A program made the translations under genes and the position numbers. DNA of 64,000 bases from Methanosarcina mazei S-6 (GTDB taxonomy: Archaea > Halobacteriota > Methanosarcinia > Methanosarcinales > Methanosarcinaceae), in assembly GCF_000970205.1 (NCBI RefSeq), contig NZ_CP009512.1, positions 434,001 through 498,000 of the forward strand, read 5' to 3'. Under the pieces are notes generated by a model that searched no databases, was not told where the DNA came from, and saw nothing but the letters and a program-made list of their open reading frames with translations. Shown here piece after piece: positions 12,403 through 24,999 of this stretch (positions are counted from its first letter, which is position 1; each line of letters opens with the position of its first letter).

Positions 12403-14139
12403 TTATTGACTCTGGAGGTCTCCTTCAACCAGGTCATCCAGGCTGTGTTCCATGTAAGGTGCATTACTCCTGTTAATAAGCTCCTGGCAGACTTCAACAG
12501 GCTTTCCGTCCATTACAAGAGCTCCGTTTTCTATCAACAGAGCTCTATGAGCGACTTCTCTAACAAAGTCCATATGGTGGCTTACGAGTACAATTGTTGT
12601 GCCAAAACGCTCGTTAACCCTTTTTAATGAATTTGTTACATCCCTCAGGGTTACGGGGTCAAGGTCTCCGAAAGGCTCGTCAAGCATAAGGTATTCTGGA
12701 GAGGTTGCAAGGCTCAGGGCAATAAAAGCTCTGACGTGTTCTCCTCCGCTTATCTGGTAAGGAGTCTTGTCAAGGATTTCAAGTGGAAGGTCAAGGGCTT
12801 CGAAAACGGGTTTTGAGTAGATGTCAACATCAGTAACCGGAACTGTTGGGAAAAGTTCGTAATAAATCGTGTCGCTGAGGTTGAGTTCTCTAAGCGCTTC
12901 TGTCTTTTCCTCTTCAGGCATATCTGGCAGGCGATAAATTGTATCCAGGGTTTCATCTGAGAGTCCCAGTTCGCTGGCTTTATTTCTTGCATATTCGATT
13001 GCACCCTGTTTTTTCAGGCTCAGCCTGAAGCGGATCTGGTCTCTCACAGTTGAGTTTACGGACATTGAGAATTCCTGGTTCATAATGCTCATAATGCGCC
13101 TGAGTTCCATACGCTTCCTGCTATATCCGGTGACATCCACCCACTCACCTTTGCAGAGGTACTCGACAGTCCCACTTTTCGGTTTTACCAGACCTTCCAT
13201 CAGTTTCATTATTGTTGTTTTTCCGGCTCCTGAAGGCCCTATAAACGCCAGAATTTCTCCTTTATAAACATCCAGAGAGAAATCTTTGATGTTGAGAACT
13301 TCTCCCATCCGGATAAGAGAATAACGTTTTGATATCTCTCTTACTTTAATGCAGACTTCTTTGTTCCCGGATTCTGAAAGTTCTTCCCTTGGTTTCATAT
13401 CTTTCAGGAAGTTTTTAAGGACCCAGGCGGGTTCACCATCTGCTGCGATTTTCCCTTTCTCAAGGAAGATAAGTCTGTCTGCAAGATAAGCATGGATTTC
13501 AGGAAGGTGGGATACAACTATAATAGGGATATTCAGTTTTTCTTTCAGACTCTTTATAACGTCAAGGATTTCCTGCTTTGTATCCGGGCCTGTCATCGTT
13601 ACGGGCTCATCAAGGAGAAGGACTTTTGGTTTTGCTGCAAGCTGCCTTGCCATTACAACCCTTTGTTTTTCTCCCCCGCTCAGAAGATTTGTGGAATGAA
13701 GGGCTTTGTGTTCCAGGCCCACCAGTTTTATGTACTCCATAGCTTCGTCAAAGAGATCTTTATAATCATCTGTCTCATTGTGCGGAAGAGCTTCATGCCC
13801 TACTCTAAGGTAATTCAATTTCCTTATGATGTTTTCTATTGCAGGACCGTTCCAGAGACCGAAATTCCGCTGGAGGTGTATTGCCGTGACACTTTTCAGA
13901 AAGTGTTCGCCCTCAATCCCTGAATCCGGAGTTACAACTTTTCCATCAACTTCTATAGTCCCTTCGTTAAAGGGCTCGACTCCACGGATAATCCGTAACA
14001 GAGTAGATTTTCCACTTCCGCTTCGACCTGTAATTCCGAGGATTTCTCCGTCCTCCACCGTGAGGTCGATATGGTCTAATACTCTTATTTTTTCGGAACG
14101 TACCTCATAATCTTTTACCAGATTGGAAATCCTGATCAT
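12403..14139 (-). CDS. Twin-ATPase ABC protein, paralogue of MCR activation component A2
   Basis: The 578-residue soluble protein has two ABC ATPase domains. Domain 1 has Walker A GRSGSGKST and LSGGEKQR. Domain 2 has GPSGAGKTT and the unusual signature ISGGEHVR, then a YLMLDEP Walker B. The layout resembles component A2 (AtwA, at 51424-53037), the ATPase that drives reductive activation of methyl-coenzyme M reductase. This copy lacks the two CxxC zinc-ribbon pairs in domain 1 and carries a longer insert in domain 2. No membrane partner is nearby. The start at 14139 follows GAGGT by six bases; an ATG at 14166 is possible. Its role is unknown. Confidence 0.75.
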   Translation of the reverse strand: MIRISNLVKDYEVRSEKIRVLDHIDLTVEDGEILGITGRSGSGKSTLLRIIRGVEPFNEGTIEVDGKVVTPDSGIEGEHFLKSVTAIHLQRNFGLWNGPAIENIIRKLNYLRVGHEALPHNETDDYKDLFDEAMEYIKLVGLEHKALHSTNLLSGGEKQRVVMARQLAAKPKVLLLDEPVTMTGPDTKQEILDVIKSLKEKLNIPIIVVSHLPEIHAYLADRLIFLEKGKIAADGEPAWVLKNFLKDMKPREELSESGNKEVCIKVREISKRYSLIRMGEVLNIKDFSLDVYKGEILAFIGPSGAGKTTIMKLMEGLVKPKSGTVEYLCKGEWVDVTGYSRKRMELRRIMSIMNQEFSMSVNSTVRDQIRFRLSLKKQGAIEYARNKASELGLSDETLDTIYRLPDMPEEEKTEALRELNLSDTIYYELFPTVPVTDVDIYSKPVFEALDLPLEILDKTPYQISGGEHVRAFIALSLATSPEYLMLDEPFGDLDPVTLRDVTNSLKRVNERFGTTIVLVSHHMDFVREVAHRALLIENGALVMDGKPVEVCQELINRSNAPYMEHSLDDLVEGDLQSQ

Positions 14140-14634
14140 AATCATACCTCTTAGTGCTGACTGCATTTTTGGGCCCGATACTGAGATTTTCAGGTCTATT
14201 ACAAGAAGTTACTCGTTCTTGCCTGAATCCTGGGCCATGTAACACTAATTAATATCTTTTATTGTTTAATATGTTACTAGATTAAATTTAAGTGATATTT
14301 CTGAATGTGTGTATTACAACAGGTTACTGATGGTCTACCTGTGAACTATTAATATTATATGCTCTGAGAAGTTAAGTATTCAAGAATATTTCTAAGTATA
14401 AAAGGTTTCAGAAATAAAAAGTTTAGGTAAAAGTCTTACAGGAAACTCAAAGCAAAAATCTGAAAAGGAACCATAAGTCTAAAATTTGAAGTCAAACAGC
14501 AAATCTCTGAAAAGAAATAAGTAAGTTCCGAAACTTTCAGAACCACAAAAATATTAATGTTTAAAATCGGTCAAGCGCAACAAATCTTTTTGATGCAATA
14601 AGCAGGTAGCACACCTTGAGCCCTTAACAGGCAC
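14140..14634. other. Intergenic spacer, no gene seen
   Basis: About 495 bp of AT-rich sequence. It must hold the promoter of the A2-like gene (TATA-like sequence around 14255-14285 on the minus strand) and the 3' end of the lipid synthase transcript. No repeat or frame of note. Confidence 0.4.
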
Positions 14635-15534: not shown

Positions 15535-16057
15535 TTTTGTCACCTGCTATTATTTTTTATTATCAATACGGTATATAGCCCGCTTAATGGATGTTAAGAC
15601 ATATAATGTTTTTCATCAAAAATTTCCGCGGCTTACTGGGTTTGAACTCTTTTTCTCTTCTATCACATACCCTGCCCTTTTCTTCATACTCAAAGGTTAT
15701 TTATTGGTTATGCTGTTTATCCCGTATCCTGCAGGCTGGAGTTAGAGACTGCAGAATATTGCAGAATATTAATGACATCTGTTTAATAGTAATAATATCA
15801 ATGCTGGCATTTCTGGCGGTAAATGTATTTTTACACTGCCATTAACAGGCTGATATTGATAGCCTGTGAAGTTTATGACTGAATTTATGTAATTCCAGGA
15901 TTGTCAGGCCAAAGGTAATCTAGTCTGAAAGACAATTTTGACTCAAAAACAATCAGGCAGAAAATATCGAACTCAGACTATTCAAAAACCAGGATTAATT
16001 TAAAATTTAATGTAGACCCGGGATAACTTAATTCTCGATTCCAGTGTGGTGATTGAT
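15535..16057. other. Divergent spacer between L40e and purB
   Basis: About 520 bp of AT-rich sequence holding the promoters of the L40e operon (leftward) and purB (rightward). Short frames inside have neither ribosome sites nor family features. No RNA gene recognised. Confidence 0.4.
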
Positions 16058-17404
16058 ATGGCTATTCATCCTATAGAATACCGGTACGGTACAGCAGAAA
16101 TGAAATATGTGTGGAGTCAGGAAAACAGACTTGCTAAGATCTTGCAGACCGAGGCAGCTCTTGCCCGGGCAGAAGCGGATATGGGGCTTATTCCCGCAGA
16201 AGCGGCTGAAATTATATTCGAAAGCATTGCCTCTGTAAAAGCCGAGAGAGTCGATGAAATAGAATCCGAGATCCACCATGACATGATGGCTGTCGTTGTT
16301 GCAATTTCAGAGATGTGCAGGGATGACGCAGGAAAATGGGTTCACTTCGGAGCCACTTCAAACGATATTCTTGATACCGCAACAGCTCTCCAGATTAAAG
16401 ACGCAATTGATATTCTGGAAGACAAACTCAAAACCCTTCTAAAAGTTCTGGTAAACCAGGCTGAAGCCCACAAAAATACTGTCTGCTGCGGAAGGACTCA
16501 CGGGCAGATAGGTGTTCCAACCACTTACGGTCTTCGTTTTGCAATCTGGGCTTCTGAAATCTCAAGGCATCTTGACCGCCTGTACGAACTGACTCCAAGA
16601 GCTACTGTGGGGCAGATGACCGGCGCTGTAGGCACTCAGGCAGCTTTTGGAAAATCGGGAATCCTTATTCAGAAACTTACAATGCAACACCTCGGAATCG
16701 GGGCTGTTGATGTCTCAAACCAGATTATCCAGAGGGACAGACATGCCGAGTTTGTTATGTGGATGGCAAATGTAGTTACAACACTGGACAAGATCGGGAT
16801 CGAAATCAGGACTCTTCAACGCAGTGAGATCGCCGAGATAGAGGAAAGTTTCGGGAAAAAGCAGGTAGGTTCATCCACCATGCCTCACAAGCGTAATCCT
16901 ATCAAGTCCGAACAGATCTGCGGGCTCGCCCGAATAGTAAGGGCAATGGTTGAGCCTGAACTCCTTAACAACACACTATGGGACGAGAGGGACCTCACGA
17001 ATTCTTCAAGTGAACGGATTGTCTTCCCTGAAGCCTGTATACTTACCGATCATATCATTAAACTCGGGATCAGCGTTCTTGAAAACCTCAGGTTCTATCC
17101 TGAAAATATCCGCAGGAACCTTGATTCCTTAAATGGTCTGAATATGGGCGAGGCTGTTATGATAGAACTTGCAAAAAGAGGTGTCGGCAGGCAGGAAGCC
17201 CACGAACTTGTCCGGACTGCAGCTATGAGAGCTCATGATACAGGGCAGCATTTCAAACAGGTTCTTCTGGATACTCCTTCCGTTTCAAAATATCTGAGTG
17301 CAGGAGATATTGAGAACCTTGTAAACCCTGACAAATATATAGGGACAGCAGTGGAACAGGTAGAAGGGCTCGTTATAAAGCTTCGAGAAGCCTATTCACT
17401 CTGA
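16058..17404 (+). CDS. purB: Adenylosuccinate lyase
   Basis: The 448-residue fumarase/aspartase-superfamily enzyme catalyses two steps of purine synthesis: SAICAR to AICAR, and adenylosuccinate to AMP. The signature loop GSSTMPHKRNP lies around residue 275. The substrate-binding HFGATSNDI and GRTHGQ segments precede it. The ATG at 16058 is preferred (family N-terminus MAIHPIEYRYG, GGTGAT site five bases upstream) over GTG at 16046. It stands alone. Confidence 0.94.
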   Translation: MAIHPIEYRYGTAEMKYVWSQENRLAKILQTEAALARAEADMGLIPAEAAEIIFESIASVKAERVDEIESEIHHDMMAVVVAISEMCRDDAGKWVHFGATSNDILDTATALQIKDAIDILEDKLKTLLKVLVNQAEAHKNTVCCGRTHGQIGVPTTYGLRFAIWASEISRHLDRLYELTPRATVGQMTGAVGTQAAFGKSGILIQKLTMQHLGIGAVDVSNQIIQRDRHAEFVMWMANVVTTLDKIGIEIRTLQRSEIAEIEESFGKKQVGSSTMPHKRNPIKSEQICGLARIVRAMVEPELLNNTLWDERDLTNSSSERIVFPEACILTDHIIKLGISVLENLRFYPENIRRNLDSLNGLNMGEAVMIELAKRGVGRQEAHELVRTAAMRAHDTGQHFKQVLLDTPSVSKYLSAGDIENLVNPDKYIGTAVEQVEGLVIKLREAYSL

Positions 17405-17544
17405 AACTCTTTTCCTTTTTTATTAAATTTCATAAATACAAAAAAAGTAATTTCTTTCGTGATCCTAAAATATTATCGATCGTTCTGTTTTTATCGACAG
17501 GCTTAAATATAAATATTTATATCTAATGAATCCCTTCTGTATAT

Positions 17545-17680
17545 GAAAGCTTTAACCTGAATATAATTCAATTGGGTGATGAGGCATCTAATTAACGGGT
17601 GATGCGTAACTAAATTCTACAGGGCTAGATGTTGTAGATAATTTGTGGTGTGAAAGTGGATAAGATGCCTCATTAACTCC
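17545..17680 (+). ncRNA. Candidate structured RNA, copy 1
   Basis: A 13-nt box (TTAAATATAAATATTTAT region, 17503-17520) lies about 30 bases before a conserved GCTTTAACC (17549-17557). The core follows: ATGAGGCATCT (17579-17589) pairs perfectly with AGATGCCTCAT (17663-17673). Inside is a small hairpin TCTAC/GTAGA (17616-17620 with 17634-17638) whose loop carries GGGCTAGATG. A conserved single strand TGGTGTGAAAGTGGAT precedes the closing arm. A second copy lies about 650 bp downstream. No frame is conserved. Ends are estimates from the TATA spacing and the stem. Confidence 0.6.
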
Positions 17681-18193
17681 TATGTACAGGTTATTTATAA
17701 AATTTATGCTAATTTTATTCCCTGTTTTCCCAGAATAATTCTTTCTCCCACTATCTCTTTTTCTTATCTTTCTATTCTTTTTTATTGAGTTTTTGTTTAT
17801 TTAACACTAATCATCTACAGACCAGTCGAAAATGAAGATCATATTAAGCTTTTTACGGAAAAGATGAATGGAGTATTCCGGATGAACGGATACTTTCTTA
17901 TCTGGCTTCCCATTTTAGGACTTCTATTTTTCCCATGCAATGTCTGGACCAGACTGTTATCTACATCTCCGAGAAATAATACTTCTATGAGCTCTCCATG
18001 CCCTGACCCGGAAGTTTTCTGAGAAAAGGAAGACAATACATCATAAGGGTATTTAATCTTTTGAGTTTTGCAGGCATTCATGCCTGGATCTATATGAAAT
18101 TACTTTATTTGTCGAAAGAAATAGATGATCTCATTTTTTTATTTTATGATTATAAAATAAAAGTTTATATATGATGATTCTCTATCCCACTTA
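17681..18193. other. Spacer between the two RNA copies
   Basis: It contains an 80-codon minus-strand frame (17839-18081) with no ribosome site and no recognised family, perhaps a gene remnant, and a T-rich stretch around 17740-17800. The promoter of RNA copy 2 (gtttatatatg, 18163-18173) lies at the right end. Confidence 0.4.
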
Positions 18194-18330
18194 GCGTGCT
18201 TTAACCAGAATTCATCCACATGGGTGATTGAGGCATCTAACAAAACAGACTTTATTTAATCAGAAATCTATTATGGGCTAGATGGTAGATTCTTTTTGGT
18301 GTGAAAGTGGATTAGATGCCTCAATAATTT
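18194..18330 (+). ncRNA. Candidate structured RNA, copy 2
   Basis: Same layout as copy 1: TATA-like gtttatatatg (18163-18173), GCTTTAACC (18198-18206), TGGGTGAT, then TTGAGGCATCTAA (18228-18240) pairing perfectly with TTAGATGCCTCAA (18312-18324). The inner hairpin is AATCTA/TAGATT (18265-18270 with 18285-18291 region), again presenting GGGCTAGATG, followed by TGGTGTGAAAGTGGAT. Between the copies one stem pair changes from A-T to T-A, so pairing is kept while sequence changes. Confidence 0.6.
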
Positions 18331-18771
18331 CTAATGATGAGGTTGTTTATATAATTTGTGTTTATTCTGCACACAACCGCCCAAAACTATCTGCTTAATT
18401 CTGTTTTCCCTTTTCCGGACCAGCATACTCTCTTTCTATCCGAGTTTTTTCATTATTCCCTGCATTTTCATTATTTCTCTCAATTAAGCAGAAGTTCTCA
18501 GTAAGAGTATAATTCCCAAATTAAGCAGAAATCTCAATAAGAGTATAGTTCCTCAATAAAACAAAAATTCTCAATTCCTCAATAAGAGACGATTCTATTA
18601 TACAGTACTTCCTTGCAGGGGCAGTACCAGATGACACTTTAAGATGACACATTAAATACTGTCGTGCGTGGGCGTCTCTCAGCTTCAACTCTCATTAAAT
18701 ATTTATTTTAAACTTATGTCTTCCTGCACGATCAGTATTAAAGTGCCGGTTCAGTAGTAACCAGATTTGGC
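18331..18771. other. Spacer with short repeated motifs
   Basis: AT-rich. Between 18480 and 18590 short phrases such as attaagcagaa and tcaataagag recur irregularly, suggesting slippage. The 3' end of the RamA-like gene follows. No gene seen. Confidence 0.4.
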
Positions 18772-20400
18772 TTACTCCTGCTGTGGGGGTTTGAAAACTT
18801 CCAGGTTCTTCCAGTCGAATTTGTCCGGAGGGCAGGCTCTAATGCATTTCTGACAGTGTGCACCTTCACAGAGGTCAGTGCTTATCATAACCCTGTTTTC
18901 TTCGTCAATTGAAATGGCATCGTTGGGGCAGACCTTTATGCACTTCCTGCACTCGGGGCAGTCAGAGACTACCATGGTCATATAGGTCCCTACCCTTTCC
19001 AGTACGTACAGGCCCTCCTCTCCAAGCACAGGGATATCTCTTTCCACGCGCTTATCGACCACAGGGTTGCTTATAGGGTCATCGAGTGACGGAAGCCCCT
19101 TCTTTTTAAGGTATTTCTTAAACATCTTGAAGGGCATCCCCTCTTCCCAGTACGCAAGTTCAAGGACATATGCATCCCTGAATTCCGGAACAGTCGCAAA
19201 CATTATATGAGTGCCTATTATCTGGCTTGCAATGTCCTGAAGCTCCCAGAGCCTCTCCTCTGAAAGCAGGGTCTCCCTTGCAACTGCAAGTGAAGTATTT
19301 CCGAGCTGAGCAATTTTTCCTGTCGAGTAAGGGATTAATCCAATTTTCTGGGCTTTTTCAGCGTCCATGTAAGTTCCGGCAGCCCCTGCCATATAGGCAA
19401 CATCTATATCTGTCATTTCGATGCCTGCAGCCGCACAGAGAGTTATATGCCCTGCTCTGATAGCGCCAATAGCTTTTCCGGCTTCTTTCAGGTCTCTTTC
19501 CGAGAAAGAAATATTGTTCTGCAGGTGAATAAATCCGTCCGGGGTCTTGACTTTCGGAAGTTCAACCAGGCCATACCCTATGGCTTTTTCAATAAGGGCA
19601 ATAACTCCAGTACCTGTGATCCCTTTTGCTTTAATCTTACCTTCTTCAAGGATTTCCCCGGTTTTAGGGTCAACAAGATCCCCAGGGTCGGGCTTCATCT
19701 CTTCGTTCAATACATAGTTCCTCAATGCCCCGTTTTCGAATTCAAAGTCCGAAATTGCAAAGGGAGAAGCAAGGGTTCCGTGCTTTATCTGCTGCCCTTC
19801 AAGCGCAGGACCTGCTGCTGCCGAGCCTGTATAAATGATATCCTTTACTTTGAGTGCCATCTCGGCATTTGTCCCATAATCCGTTGCAATTGATATTTCG
19901 TCACTTTCAAGCATTCCCGATTTGGTTATGAGAGCAAGGGCATCCGCTCCTACCTCGTGTTTTATGGCAGGAGGGACTACAACTTCGCAGTTGAACTCTT
20001 CAAGCCCTGAAATTTCGCTGCTGGGTATTATCCTCGCGTTTCTGGTCTGTTCCTGTATGTTGTACTTCTTTTTCTTCCGTTCCCCTGCGTAAGCCAGGTC
20101 TTCGATAGTGATTCCCTGGAAAATAGACAACTGAATCGGGTTTCCGCAGATTGAAATTCTGTCCAGTTCCTCGCTAGGCACATCAAGCGTCTGGAGCAGG
20201 GTTTTTACCGCATTTACCGATAGCCCATGTGCAAGATCCTGCCCGTAGCGAATTGCGAAGTCCATGTGATCCATCACATTCGCTCCGGGAAGAGGATTTC
20301 TCAGTGTTATTACTGTCCTTTTGATTTCTCTGGTATCCATGTCAATCTTCTGAGCTCGATACCCACTTGTTCCCAGGTCAACTGCAACTCCATATCTCAT
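18772..20400 (-). CDS. RamA-type corrinoid protein reductive activase
   Basis: The 542-residue protein has an ASKHA-fold ATPase body (DUF4445/RACo type; GVAVDLGTSGYR at the N-terminus, ATDYGTNAEM and AGAAGTYMD phosphate loops). A C-terminal ferredoxin domain carries two 4Fe-4S motifs: CxxCxxCxxxCP (around residue 483) and Cx4CxxCxxxCP (around 514). RamA uses ATP to reduce Co(II) corrinoid proteins to Co(I) so that methylamine methyltransferases can work. Length and both clusters fit RamA. No methyltransferase or corrinoid gene is nearby, so it may be RamA itself or a paralogue for another substrate. GAGGGG stands eight bases before the ATG. Confidence 0.85.
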   Translation of the reverse strand: MRYGVAVDLGTSGYRAQKIDMDTREIKRTVITLRNPLPGANVMDHMDFAIRYGQDLAHGLSVNAVKTLLQTLDVPSEELDRISICGNPIQLSIFQGITIEDLAYAGERKKKKYNIQEQTRNARIIPSSEISGLEEFNCEVVVPPAIKHEVGADALALITKSGMLESDEISIATDYGTNAEMALKVKDIIYTGSAAAGPALEGQQIKHGTLASPFAISDFEFENGALRNYVLNEEMKPDPGDLVDPKTGEILEEGKIKAKGITGTGVIALIEKAIGYGLVELPKVKTPDGFIHLQNNISFSERDLKEAGKAIGAIRAGHITLCAAAGIEMTDIDVAYMAGAAGTYMDAEKAQKIGLIPYSTGKIAQLGNTSLAVARETLLSEERLWELQDIASQIIGTHIMFATVPEFRDAYVLELAYWEEGMPFKMFKKYLKKKGLPSLDDPISNPVVDKRVERDIPVLGEEGLYVLERVGTYMTMVVSDCPECRKCIKVCPNDAISIDEENRVMISTDLCEGAHCQKCIRACPPDKFDWKNLEVFKPPQQE

Positions 20401-20700: not shown

Positions 20701-21017
20701 CTGATGAGCTAGTCCGGGTAGCCCGGCGTTACCTGTAACCCGAAATCGCCGATACGCGGGGGACGAAGCCAAAGGAAGATGTGCCAGAGAGATTCCAGCC
20801 TGAAGTCTCAACTGAGAAGCCCCGTCCTGCTTGGATGGTGCAGGTATGCGGGCCTGCTGGAAAACAGGTTCTCATACCCTAACCGTGGAAACCGGTCGAG
20901 GCCCGGAAGGGAGCAGACTCACTGTGGGCAACCGTCGCTTGCGGGGTCGCGGGGTGGAGAAGAGATCTCAGCCTACTGGAGCTTCCGAGGCGCAGCGACC
21001 TGAGGCGTGCTCATCAC
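20701..21017 (+). ncRNA. Signal recognition particle 7S RNA
   Basis: About 317 nt of GC-rich sequence in an AT-rich setting. The 5' end GATGAGC (20703-20709) pairs with GCTCATC (21009-21015), the archaeal-type helix 1. CCGGGTAGCCCGG near the 5' end is the Alu-domain hairpin. The conserved SRP54-binding domain appears as GGTCGAGGCCCGGAAGGGAG (around 20895-20915) followed by CAGAC. With SRP19 and SRP54 it directs membrane and secreted proteins to the translocon. Ends are set by the terminal helix and may be off by a few bases. Short open frames across it are chance. Confidence 0.92.
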
Positions 21018-21416: not shown

Positions 21417-22133
21417 ATGGACCGAGTTAAAACAATGAAACGGATATCATCAGGAATACCTGAGCTTGACACAAGAATCGGCGGTGGATACCTGGCGGGC
21501 AGGGTTCTCCTTATCACAGGGGATACAGGAACCGGTAAAACAACTTTTACCATTCATTTTCTGCACAGGGCATGCCTTGATGGTAAAAAGTGTGTTCTGG
21601 TTGCAACGGAAGAACTTCCTGAGGATATTCTTGACCTATCCGAAATGCTGGGTCTCGGGCTTACTAAATATTATGAAAATGGTCAGCTTGCTATTGAGAG
21701 GTCCTTTCAGAACCGCTCGGAAAAAGTTCAGACTTCCAAATTCGGTTTCACTCCCGAAGGCCTTGAAATTGAACTGCCCACCCTTTCTGATTATGTACCT
21801 GAAGGAACAGATGTCGTGGTTATTGACAATATAGGGGTTTTCACACTAAGGCTCTCTATACAGGATTTCAGGGACCAGTTTGACGCATTGAATTTTATCC
21901 TGAGCACCAGAGGTGACTGCACGGCAATGTTTGTCATGGACGACACGGCTTGCAAGATGACTCACAACCTTGCCGAATATTCTGTAAGCGGTTCTCTCCG
22001 GCTTATGGTAGACGAAAACCCATATACGGGAAACATTGAACGCTACATAAGAATTCCTAAAATGAGACGGACATGCCTCAGTTTAAACCCTATTAGATTT
22101 GAAATTACCTCATCCGGGATTAAACTCCTTTGA
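21417..22133 (+). CDS. KaiC/FlaH-like RecA-fold ATPase
   Basis: The 238-residue single-domain RecA-fold ATPase opens with the family phrase SSGIPELDTRIGGG, then Walker A GDTGTGKTT (about residues 38-46), an ATEEL segment and Walker B VVVIDN (about 137-142). This is the KaiC/GvpD/FlaH group. FlaH (ArlH) binds ATP in the archaellum motor with FlaI and FlaJ. The next two genes are FlaI- and FlaJ-like, so a motor role is plausible but inferred; 409 bp separate it from them. No clear Shine-Dalgarno precedes the ATG; Met7 is an alternative start. Confidence 0.75.
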   Translation: MDRVKTMKRISSGIPELDTRIGGGYLAGRVLLITGDTGTGKTTFTIHFLHRACLDGKKCVLVATEELPEDILDLSEMLGLGLTKYYENGQLAIERSFQNRSEKVQTSKFGFTPEGLEIELPTLSDYVPEGTDVVVIDNIGVFTLRLSIQDFRDQFDALNFILSTRGDCTAMFVMDDTACKMTHNLAEYSVSGSLRLMVDENPYTGNIERYIRIPKMRRTCLSLNPIRFEITSSGIKLL

Positions 22134-22542
22134 GCCTCTGATTAATTATAATTCTATTCTCTTTTTCAAATAATTTTTCTTTTCAAATAATTTTTCTTAA
22201 AAATCCTTTTTATATTTTCCTGTATGGATATTAGCTTTTAAATTTGAATTCAATTTTCAATACAAATTAAATATAATATATTTTTTATGATTTATCTTCA
22301 TGAAAAGATTTATACTCTTAAACGCTATTTCTTATTTAATTAATTTCAAAATTTTCAGTAGTTTTTCTCTATATTCATTGAAGAGTAAATTAAATTTCGA
22401 ATGAAATATCATTGTTTAGTAACACGATGAATACTATTGGAGACCTTTAACAATTAGGATAAATTTAAACAGAACTTATATTATTATTTTATACTGATAG
22501 CCGAATTTACGAGGGGACTAATCTCCGGTGGGGTGAGCTTCT
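22134..22542. other. AT-rich spacer before the secretion operon
   Basis: No gene seen. Very AT-rich (aaattaaatataatatatttttta around 22263-22287), so the promoter of the ATPase/membrane-protein operon probably lies here. Confidence 0.4.
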
Positions 22543-24999
22543 ATGGTTTCTAAAAACGAGAAATCTCCGGATGACTCAGAAAGATCAGAAAAGAACATGT
22601 GTACAGGCGAGGAAAAAGATGTTCAGGCAGGCAAATCCTATCTTTTACAGGTGCCTGTCAAGAAAATTCCTTATGAAACCGGTGCTAATACGCCCGGTAG
22701 CAGCCCTCAGGCTGGAAAGGATACAGGTGCAGATACGGATAATATCCTGCAGGAAGCTTTAAAAGACGAAACTGCGGGAAATGAAAATGATTTCAATAAA
22801 ATTGCAAAAAATGAGAATGAAGAAGATGGGGATGCTCAAAATGAAAATACTCATCTCCCTGATATGAAAATCAAGGTAGAAAGCCGTAAAACCAAACCTG
22901 TACTGGAATCTGTACAATTTGAGAGTTTTTCCCCGGAAACAGGGGCTGAAGGGGGTTTGAAATCTGAAGTTTTACATGGCCCATCTTTAATTGCAGACGA
23001 GCCCGACAGCGATAAAACGACCTTTTCTGATGGAAATGCGGCTTCTGAACAAAAACCTGCTGTTTCTAAAGAGGCGACTTCTGAAAAGAAAGTTGAACTA
23101 ATTCAGGAAACTGAAAATAAAGGCATTTTTCCCCCTCCGAGAGGGCCTCATCTTGAAGGGACTGCAGGCGATAAAGATGGAGTTAAGGAATTAAAGAGTT
23201 CTCATGAAACAAAAATAGAGAAAAAAGTCCGAACTTCAGGTAAATCCAAAAAAGCTGTCCGGAAGGCAAAAATCAAGAAAAAACCCGGATTCGCCGAAAA
23301 TATGAAAGGTCTTACCCGGGACATAATGGGGATTAAAGAAGGCGAAAAATTAAGTGATAAGCTCAAAGAGTTCTTTGAGGAAGTAAAAACCCCTGAGGGG
23401 GCAAAAAAGAAATTTGAAGAAATAATCCGGAATTTGAAGGACGAGGAAATAAGGGTTCTTCCGCCTTATGATCCGGAAACCTGCGGCCCTCTTCTTGAAT
23501 ATGAAATTCCTGCGGGATTTACTGAAATCGAACGCTACTGGGTAGAAGAGCCTTACGCTTTTGTCAGCATAATAGAAAACAGGGAAATGAAATACTATTA
23601 TGTTATTGAGCCTACTCTAACCGTCTATGAAAAAACTGTTCTTGAAAGGGTCAGAAATAATCTTGAAGACGTTCTTACTCAGGAGGACATGATAACCGGA
23701 AAAGAAAAAGACGTCGTCCTCATTAACAGGTCTATGCGGCTTTTTGATCAATATTACAGTACCCTTGAAGTTTCCTCCATTCATAAAATAATGTATTTCC
23801 TGAGAAGAAATTTCATTGGATATGAAAGGATAAACCCGCTGATTCATGACCCGAACATAGAAGATATTTCCTGTTCCGGTATCGAAATCCCTATTTATCT
23901 TTACCATAGAAAGCACAACAACATCGTGACCAATATCCATTTTGGGGAGAAAGAACTGGATTCCCTTGTTGTCAAGCTCTGCCAGAGGAGCGGCAAGCAC
24001 ATCTCCATAGGAGAACCAATCGTAGATGCGACTCTTCCTGACGGGTCAAGAATTCAGGCAACCCTCGGAAAAGAAGTTACTACAAGGGGAAGTTCTTACA
24101 CAATCCGTAAGTTTAAAGGAGATCCGATAACTCCTGTTGACCTGATGCGGTACGGCACATGCAGTGTCGAAATGATGGCTTACTACTGGATTGCAATTGA
24201 AAACAACATCAGTGTGCTTTTTGCTGGGGGCACGGCCTCAGGTAAAACTTCTCTTATGAATGCTATTTCTCTTTTTATTCCAAGGCTGTCAAAAGTGGTG
24301 TCCATTGAAGACACAAGGGAAATAATGCTCTACCATGAAAACTGGATTGCAGGAGCAACCAGGAAATCGTTCACAGTTGGAGGTACTGGCGAAGTTTCAA
24401 TGTATGAGCTCCTGAAAGCTGCTCTCAGGCAGCGTCCTGAGTATATCCTGGTGGGCGAAGTACGTGGTAAAGAGGCTCTTACCCTTTTCCAGGCAATGTC
24501 GACAGGCCACACCACCTATTCAACAATGCATGCAAGCGATGTGCAGACTGTAGTTAACAGGCTTGAGAACGAGCCTATCAACGTACCTCATGTAATGATG
24601 CAGGCCCTTGGTATCATCTGCATTCAGATGCAGACCTATGTCAATGAGACCAGAGTTAGGAGAACCAAAACAATAGTGGAGATCACAGGACTTGACGCAA
24701 GGTCAGGAAGTCTGAGGATCAATGAACTCTACCGCTGGGAGCCGGTGCACGATAACTTCAAGCGGGCAGGCGATTCCTATGTGCTTAATGAGATTATGAG
24801 AGCAAGAGGATGGAGCCCTGATAAACTCTTTATTGAATTTAAAAACCGGGAGCAAATCCTTGCCTATATGGCAGCAAAACAGATCCGTGATTACGTGAGC
24901 GTTTCCCTTATAGTACATATGTATGCTACAAATCCGCAGCTTGTAATGGAAGCGGTTGGAAACGATACCCTGCGGGATATGGTAGCACATCACAGTTAA
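22543..24999 (+). CDS. Type IV pilus/archaellum-type secretion ATPase (PilB/TadA/FlaI family)
   Basis: This 818-residue ATPase is expected to drive assembly of a surface filament or secretion. Residues 1 to about 240 are charged and low in complexity (Glu, Lys, Asp, Ser) and probably disordered. The conserved part starts near 290. Walker A GGTASGKTS is at about 564-572, followed by the Asp box SIEDTREIML, the Walker B region ILVGEVRG and the His box STGHTTYSTMHA. FlaI proteins are about 550 residues, so the extra N-terminus is the oddity. The stop is 12 bp before the FlaJ/TadC-like gene, so they are co-transcribed. Confidence 0.9.
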   Translation: MVSKNEKSPDDSERSEKNMCTGEEKDVQAGKSYLLQVPVKKIPYETGANTPGSSPQAGKDTGADTDNILQEALKDETAGNENDFNKIAKNENEEDGDAQNENTHLPDMKIKVESRKTKPVLESVQFESFSPETGAEGGLKSEVLHGPSLIADEPDSDKTTFSDGNAASEQKPAVSKEATSEKKVELIQETENKGIFPPPRGPHLEGTAGDKDGVKELKSSHETKIEKKVRTSGKSKKAVRKAKIKKKPGFAENMKGLTRDIMGIKEGEKLSDKLKEFFEEVKTPEGAKKKFEEIIRNLKDEEIRVLPPYDPETCGPLLEYEIPAGFTEIERYWVEEPYAFVSIIENREMKYYYVIEPTLTVYEKTVLERVRNNLEDVLTQEDMITGKEKDVVLINRSMRLFDQYYSTLEVSSIHKIMYFLRRNFIGYERINPLIHDPNIEDISCSGIEIPIYLYHRKHNNIVTNIHFGEKELDSLVVKLCQRSGKHISIGEPIVDATLPDGSRIQATLGKEVTTRGSSYTIRKFKGDPITPVDLMRYGTCSVEMMAYYWIAIENNISVLFAGGTASGKTSLMNAISLFIPRLSKVVSIEDTREIMLYHENWIAGATRKSFTVGGTGEVSMYELLKAALRQRPEYILVGEVRGKEALTLFQAMSTGHTTYSTMHASDVQTVVNRLENEPINVPHVMMQALGIICIQMQTYVNETRVRRTKTIVEITGLDARSGSLRINELYRWEPVHDNFKRAGDSYVLNEIMRARGWSPDKLFIEFKNREQILAYMAAKQIRDYVSVSLIVHMYATNPQLVMEAVGNDTLRDMVAHHS

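Follow-up and report, generated by a model that had tools for sequence, protein, structure and literature searches.

A tandem pair of RNA-like segments between purB and ramA in Methanosarcina mazei and its relatives

Two related segments in the purB–ramA gap

The window, a stretch of 64,000 nucleotides of the M. mazei S-6 genome, contains purB (adenylosuccinate lyase; 16046-17404, + strand; TIGR00928, 526.5 bits, cut-off 326.2) and, convergent and downstream of it, ramA (methylamine methyltransferase corrinoid activase; 18772-20400, − strand; TIGR04270, 918.6 bits, cut-off 500). The gap between these genes is 1.37 kb, and an SRP RNA is located in the same neighbourhood (20702-21016). In agreement with the original prediction, which was based on the letters of this region, two related segments are present on the + strand of the gap. 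We name them copy a and copy b. Both contain the motifs TGGGTGAT and TGGTGTGAAAGTGGAT, which had been predicted to be common to them. The RNA of copy a would span 17545-17715 (+) and that of copy b 18194-18389 (+). The 5′ ends, at about 17545 and about 18194, are predicted from the TATA boxes, and the 3′ limits correspond to the ends of the conserved blocks (...CCCAAAACT in copy b). The conserved unit thus extends 3′ past the outer stem at which it had originally been delimited, to about 17715 and 18389.

The two segments had also been proposed to have matching promoters, and TATA-like boxes are indeed present at 17515-17522 (ATTTATAT) and 18164-18171 (TTTATATA), ∼34 nt before GCTTTAACC. In copy a the box is followed by TAATGAAT within a conserved A/T-rich block (17500-17531, +); in copy b it lies together with TGATGATT in an A/T-rich block at 18155-18179 (+). 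Within the 64 kb only the two copies match the promoter pattern, with 0.04 matches expected. The element GCTTTAACC, listed in the prediction among the conserved parts, occupies this position in both M. mazei copies but is not kept in relatives.

A conservation profile, calculated as column identity across six related gaps, showed a peak over the promoter of copy a (0.76 at 17495-17524, flanks 0.24-0.52) and another over that of copy b (0.88). Identity dipped between promoter and body, to 0.52 in copy a and 0.45 in copy b. It was 0.78-0.94 over 17555-17704 in the body of copy a, reached maxima of 0.94 and 0.90 in the bodies of copies a and b, respectively, and then dropped to 0.13-0.4. The spacer between the copies is weakly conserved, and the two conservation peaks rise above it. 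Ahead of the copy b promoter, the region 18005-18154 is moderately conserved (0.53-0.61); at the equivalent position, relatives such as L004 and L005 contain an A/T-rich inverted repeat (ATTAAAGC...GCTTTAAT) that the window does not have.

Distribution and history of the pair

RamA used as a protein query retrieved 26 archaeal loci, the ones closest to the window having both copies at the corresponding position between purB and ramA. Genomes were searched with a covariance model, R1, and with a longer one, R2. In the window, R1 matches copy a at 17567-17703 (127 bits, E 8e-31) and copy b at 18216-18355 (120 bits), and R2 matches copy b over its full length (159 bits, E 5e-28). R1 detected exactly two copies in 10 of the 31 Methanosarcina genomes and none in the others, two copies in all four genomes of one sister genus, and diverged copies (E ∼1e-18) in a more distant genus (G031 and G116), with two in one genome and one in another. 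In the distant genus, copy a is located after purB (L086) and copy b just upstream of the SRP RNA (L087, L088); this neighbourhood is also that of the window. Covariance-model E-values ranged from 1e-17 to 1e-41. No reliable copies were found elsewhere in the searched sets of 238 class genomes and 393 phylum genomes, and R2, run over 112 family and 393 phylum genomes, added nothing convincing except one relic. Every Methanosarcina and sister-genus genome has either two copies or none, always in the same neighbourhood.

The view that the segments belong to a real RNA family is borne out by the presence of the same motifs in syntenic loci of relatives and by the low covariance-model E-values; the additional copies obtained in this way have kept their pairing in two helices, P2 and P4 (see below). 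On sequence grounds, then, this RNA-like family is real, narrowly distributed and, among the genomes searched, confined to Methanosarcina and two sister genera.

The promoter region is not uniform among relatives. For copy b of G031 (L087) and copy b of G027 (L063), no clear TATA box occupies the usual position, and the box of G116 (L088) is weak. In L063, the body of copy b (1082-1220, −) is intact, but the TATA block normally found upstream of it has been lost. Some other signals were discarded. All exact 16-mer matches in non-carrier genomes fell within coding genes, several of them in one nucleotidyltransferase-like gene, or within unrelated repeats, and a weak match in G134 (E 0.04) corresponds to an isolated A/T-rich hairpin beside a different gene, which we took as chance.

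In a purB tree all non-carriers form one clade nested within the carriers, with a support of 0.925 for the relevant split. In addition, half-deleted relics are present on two early branches of this clade: the 5′ half of copy a in L014, and the 3′ end of copy b in L018. Together these sequence comparisons indicate an ancestral pair that was lost in one Methanosarcina clade. The 3′ flanks of copies a and b differ consistently, also between genera, and the cores of the two copies within a genome are 88-97% alike, the window's own copies (75%) being the exception and the most diverged pair seen. This combination of distinct flanks and similar cores suggests an old duplication, perhaps followed by homogenisation of the core.

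Base pairing within the copies

Compared with shuffled sequences, copy a folds moderately better (z −1.8) and copy b clearly better (z −3.2). The predicted outer stem of 11-13 perfect pairs is formed by ATGAGGCATCT/AGATGCCTCAT in copy a (11 pairs) and by ATTGAGGCATCTAA/TTAGATGCCTCAAT in copy b (14 pairs), and the pair described as swapped is A-T in the former and T-A in the latter. Over nine pairs of this stem, P1, the 5′ arm is GAGGCATCT (17581-17589 and 18230-18238, +; with little or no variation among 30 copies) and the 3′ arm AGATGCCTC (17663-17671 and 18314-18322, +). Structures were tested on a hand-made alignment of 30 copies against a null obtained by replaying substitutions on the tree; the P-values given below thus rest on a hand-made alignment of distant copies. 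P1 is almost invariant, the sole double change inside the nine-pair stem being T-A to C-G in L086, and covariation therefore cannot test it. The copies were too alike for RNAalifold, which returned a poor consensus from the first alignment.

More informative results were obtained for the inner helix P2 (consensus CGTAA/TTACG), which was paired in 95% of cases versus 77% under the tree null (P=0.004) and contains three pairs with double changes (for example, CGTAA/TTACG to CATAA/TTGTG and CGTTA/TAACG). In the window, P2 is formed by CGTAA (17605-17609, +) and TTGTG (17643-17647, +) in copy a, and by CAGAA (18261-18265, +) and TTTTG (18294-18298) in copy b, where the alignment was set by hand and two pairs are changed on both sides relative to the consensus. 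A further hairpin, P4, had escaped the original prediction. It is located at 18356-18376 (+) in copy b (TTGTGT/ACACAA) and is degenerate in copy a. Among b copies, P4 (TTGTGY/RCACAA) was 94% paired versus 54% under the null (P=0.002), its closing pair being T-A, T-G or C-G, and the L018 relic contains another double change (CTGTG/CACAG).

The inner hairpin (17616-17638, +, in copy a; 18266-18290, +, in copy b) has two competing pairings. In copy a these are TCTACA/TGTAGA (17616-17621/17633-17638) and TCTA/TAGA (17616-17619/17626-17629); in copy b, ATCTATTA/TGGTAGAT (18266-18273/18283-18290) and ATCTA/TAGAT (18266-18270/18279-18283). The version originally proposed, with loop GGGCTAGATG, is favoured by folding energy, but it shows no double change and competes with ATCTA[TTTGGGC]TAGAT. 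The latter shows double changes at four pairs (P=0.006), with a single exception all from the distant genus, which was aligned by hand; without that genus the signal disappears (P=0.44). The original prediction also envisaged two exclusive folds, in which the loop motif TAGATG would compete for the 5′ arm of the outer stem, CATCTA. This is not supported: the variation in TAGATG is not accompanied by compensating variation in CATCTA, no pair shows a double change, 85% of cells are paired versus 83% under the null, and the ensemble probability of the switch pairing is ∼0. Judged by eye, the 5′ leader (UUGGGU) could pair at long range with the 3′ end (RYCCAA) in many b copies. The strand TGGTGTGAAAGTGGAT (17646-17661 and 18297-18312, +) is nearly invariant in all copies, including those of the distant genus.

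Possible function of the pair and rival readings

A search of the whole window against Rfam 15 returned, at or above the gathering score, only the SRP RNA and tRNA, which agrees, as far as Rfam goes, with the view that the structure was undescribed, and permissive searches of the purB–ramA gap and of the relative L077 gave only chance-level matches. A guide RNA would be expected to carry boxes C/D (RUGAUGA/CUGA) or an ANA box after a stem, and to be complementary to rRNA. The copies had no Rfam guide match, boxes C/D and the ANA box were absent from them as judged by eye, and complementarity to 16S and 23S rRNA was not above that of shuffles, one long duplex lying 1.5 kb outside 16S. Likewise, complementarity to the SRP RNA and tRNA-Ser showed nothing above shuffles inside these RNAs. 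Each copy is a candidate archaeal intergenic small RNA, a kind recognised by a promoter of its own, the lack of a conserved ORF and a discrete transcript; of these features, both copies show the promoter, predicted from sequence, and the lack of a conserved ORF.

sRNA162 and sRNA171 of M. mazei are a homologous pair of intergenic sRNAs (191 nt) with stem loops, a single-stranded linker and compensatory changes between the copies (PMC3510493). The purB/ramA pair resembles them in being homologous and intergenic and in having stem loops and compensatory changes. Members of that family are recognised by a locus next to MM2441 (an ArsR-type regulator) or MM2448 and by a homologue in M. barkeri. 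However, sRNA162 is located between MM2441 and MM2442 and sRNA171 between MM2448 and MM2449, so that they are not in tandem in one gap, whereas the copies studied here are in tandem and elsewhere. In addition, sRNA162 has its M. barkeri homologue, whereas the purB/ramA family is missing from the clade of non-carriers, which we take to be the barkeri clade. Judged by locus and distribution only, the pair does not belong to the sRNA162/sRNA171 family. sRNA154 of M. mazei is also intergenic and structured, is kept in Methanosarcina and acts on several mRNAs (PMC5867862); unlike the purB/ramA pair, it is encoded by one gene, which lies between MM3337 and MM3338 and has an NrpR operator (PMC3177094). 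The purB/ramA family is absent from Rfam 15 and its loci are unlike those of the characterised M. mazei sRNAs compared here.

We consider it probable that the pair is an ancestral set of two noncoding small RNA genes of ∼150-200 nt each, which are transcribed independently, yield folded RNAs and act in trans as regulators. Each copy would be transcribed from its own TATA promoter, and its RNA would close into the long outer stem P1, holding P2 and the inner hairpin and presenting the strands GUGGUAGAU and GGUGUGAAAGUGGAU, both highly conserved; the less altered copy would end with the second hairpin P4. The twins may then offer these strands to mRNA or protein partners. That they are RNA genes is supported by sequence conservation, synteny, conserved promoters, the pairing kept in P2 and P4, and loss in one clade. 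As to their role, trans-acting regulation is the most likely one by analogy with sRNA162/sRNA171 and sRNA154. A comparable arrangement is found in bacterial twins of the PrrF1/PrrF2 type, in which duplicated neighbouring sRNA genes have separate promoters and a common conserved core; we know of no sequence relation between these and the purB/ramA pair.

In a search for antisense targets, reverse complements of two of the conserved strands produced only scattered matches in four genomes; for the first strand, whose matches were read individually, the sole pair of orthologous matches has this strand in the mRNA in sense rather than antisense orientation. Moreover, an antisense seed is usually shorter than the conserved single strands, which counts against an antisense reading. 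With no convincing antisense, rRNA, SRP or tRNA-Ser pairing from simple searches, a protein-binding role stays a serious, if rather unlikely, rival: the strands would form a protein or small-ligand site of a ribonucleoprotein-type RNA acting as scaffold or decoy without pairing to mRNA. This would fit an unpaired core that stays almost unchanged even in the distant genus, in which the arms and linkers have diverged, and the failure of two probes to reveal a conserved antisense target; however, no known protein motif was identified, and the copies have no Rfam box C/D, H/ACA, SRP or RNase P signature. More speculatively, and a shade less likely still, the pair may represent a new class of protein- or ligand-binding RNA, mutually homogenised, with a single-stranded core, ancestral to three Methanosarcinaceae genera, and lost where physiology changed.

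Improbable, in our view, is a DNA element without RNA function, such as paired palindromes serving as a protein-binding or chromosome-organisation site. The almost invariant inverted repeat of the P1 arms, with almost no covariation, and the copy number fixed at two would suit it, but not the conserved upstream promoters, the asymmetric conserved core, the pairing of P2 and P4 that survives changes, or the drop in identity that separates promoter from body. Translated small ORFs occur in many M. mazei sRNA candidates (PMC11456600), and the copies could be short mRNAs for very small proteins. Yet no start codon or reading frame common to the copies was found and their indels are not in threes, making this very improbable. 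Paralogous copies with inverted repeats would also suit a transposable element, a MITE or an integrated mobile element. Such an origin is the hardest of all to credit, as each carrier has two copies in one orthologous, syntenic place, inheritance is vertical with loss, and plasmids and phages contain no match to the copies.

To our knowledge, few archaeal small RNAs have known functions. Small RNA genes of this kind would be of interest as a duplicated pair conserved across genera, in a genetically tractable genus (M. mazei, M. acetivorans), with natural non-carriers and their relics as a ready comparison; Rfam would gain a new family.

Some observations concern the neighbouring genes. Two Methanosarcina loci contain two tandem ramA-like genes (L014, 5001-9391; L011, 3065-6612), those of L014 being ∼84% and 80% identical to the RamA of the window. 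The ramA gene beside the pair in L028 (5001-5650) looks truncated, only residues 2-66 and 489-538 matching. The window also encodes a two-domain ABC ATPase (12403-14166, −) resembling methyl-coenzyme M reductase component A2 (316 bits versus a cut-off of 517). After the SRP RNA and tRNA-Ser follow, at 21417-24999, a KaiC/ArlH-like protein and an archaellum/type IV secretion-like ATPase; the order SRP RNA, tRNA-Ser, KaiC/ArlH-like protein, ATPase is also kept in the distant genus.
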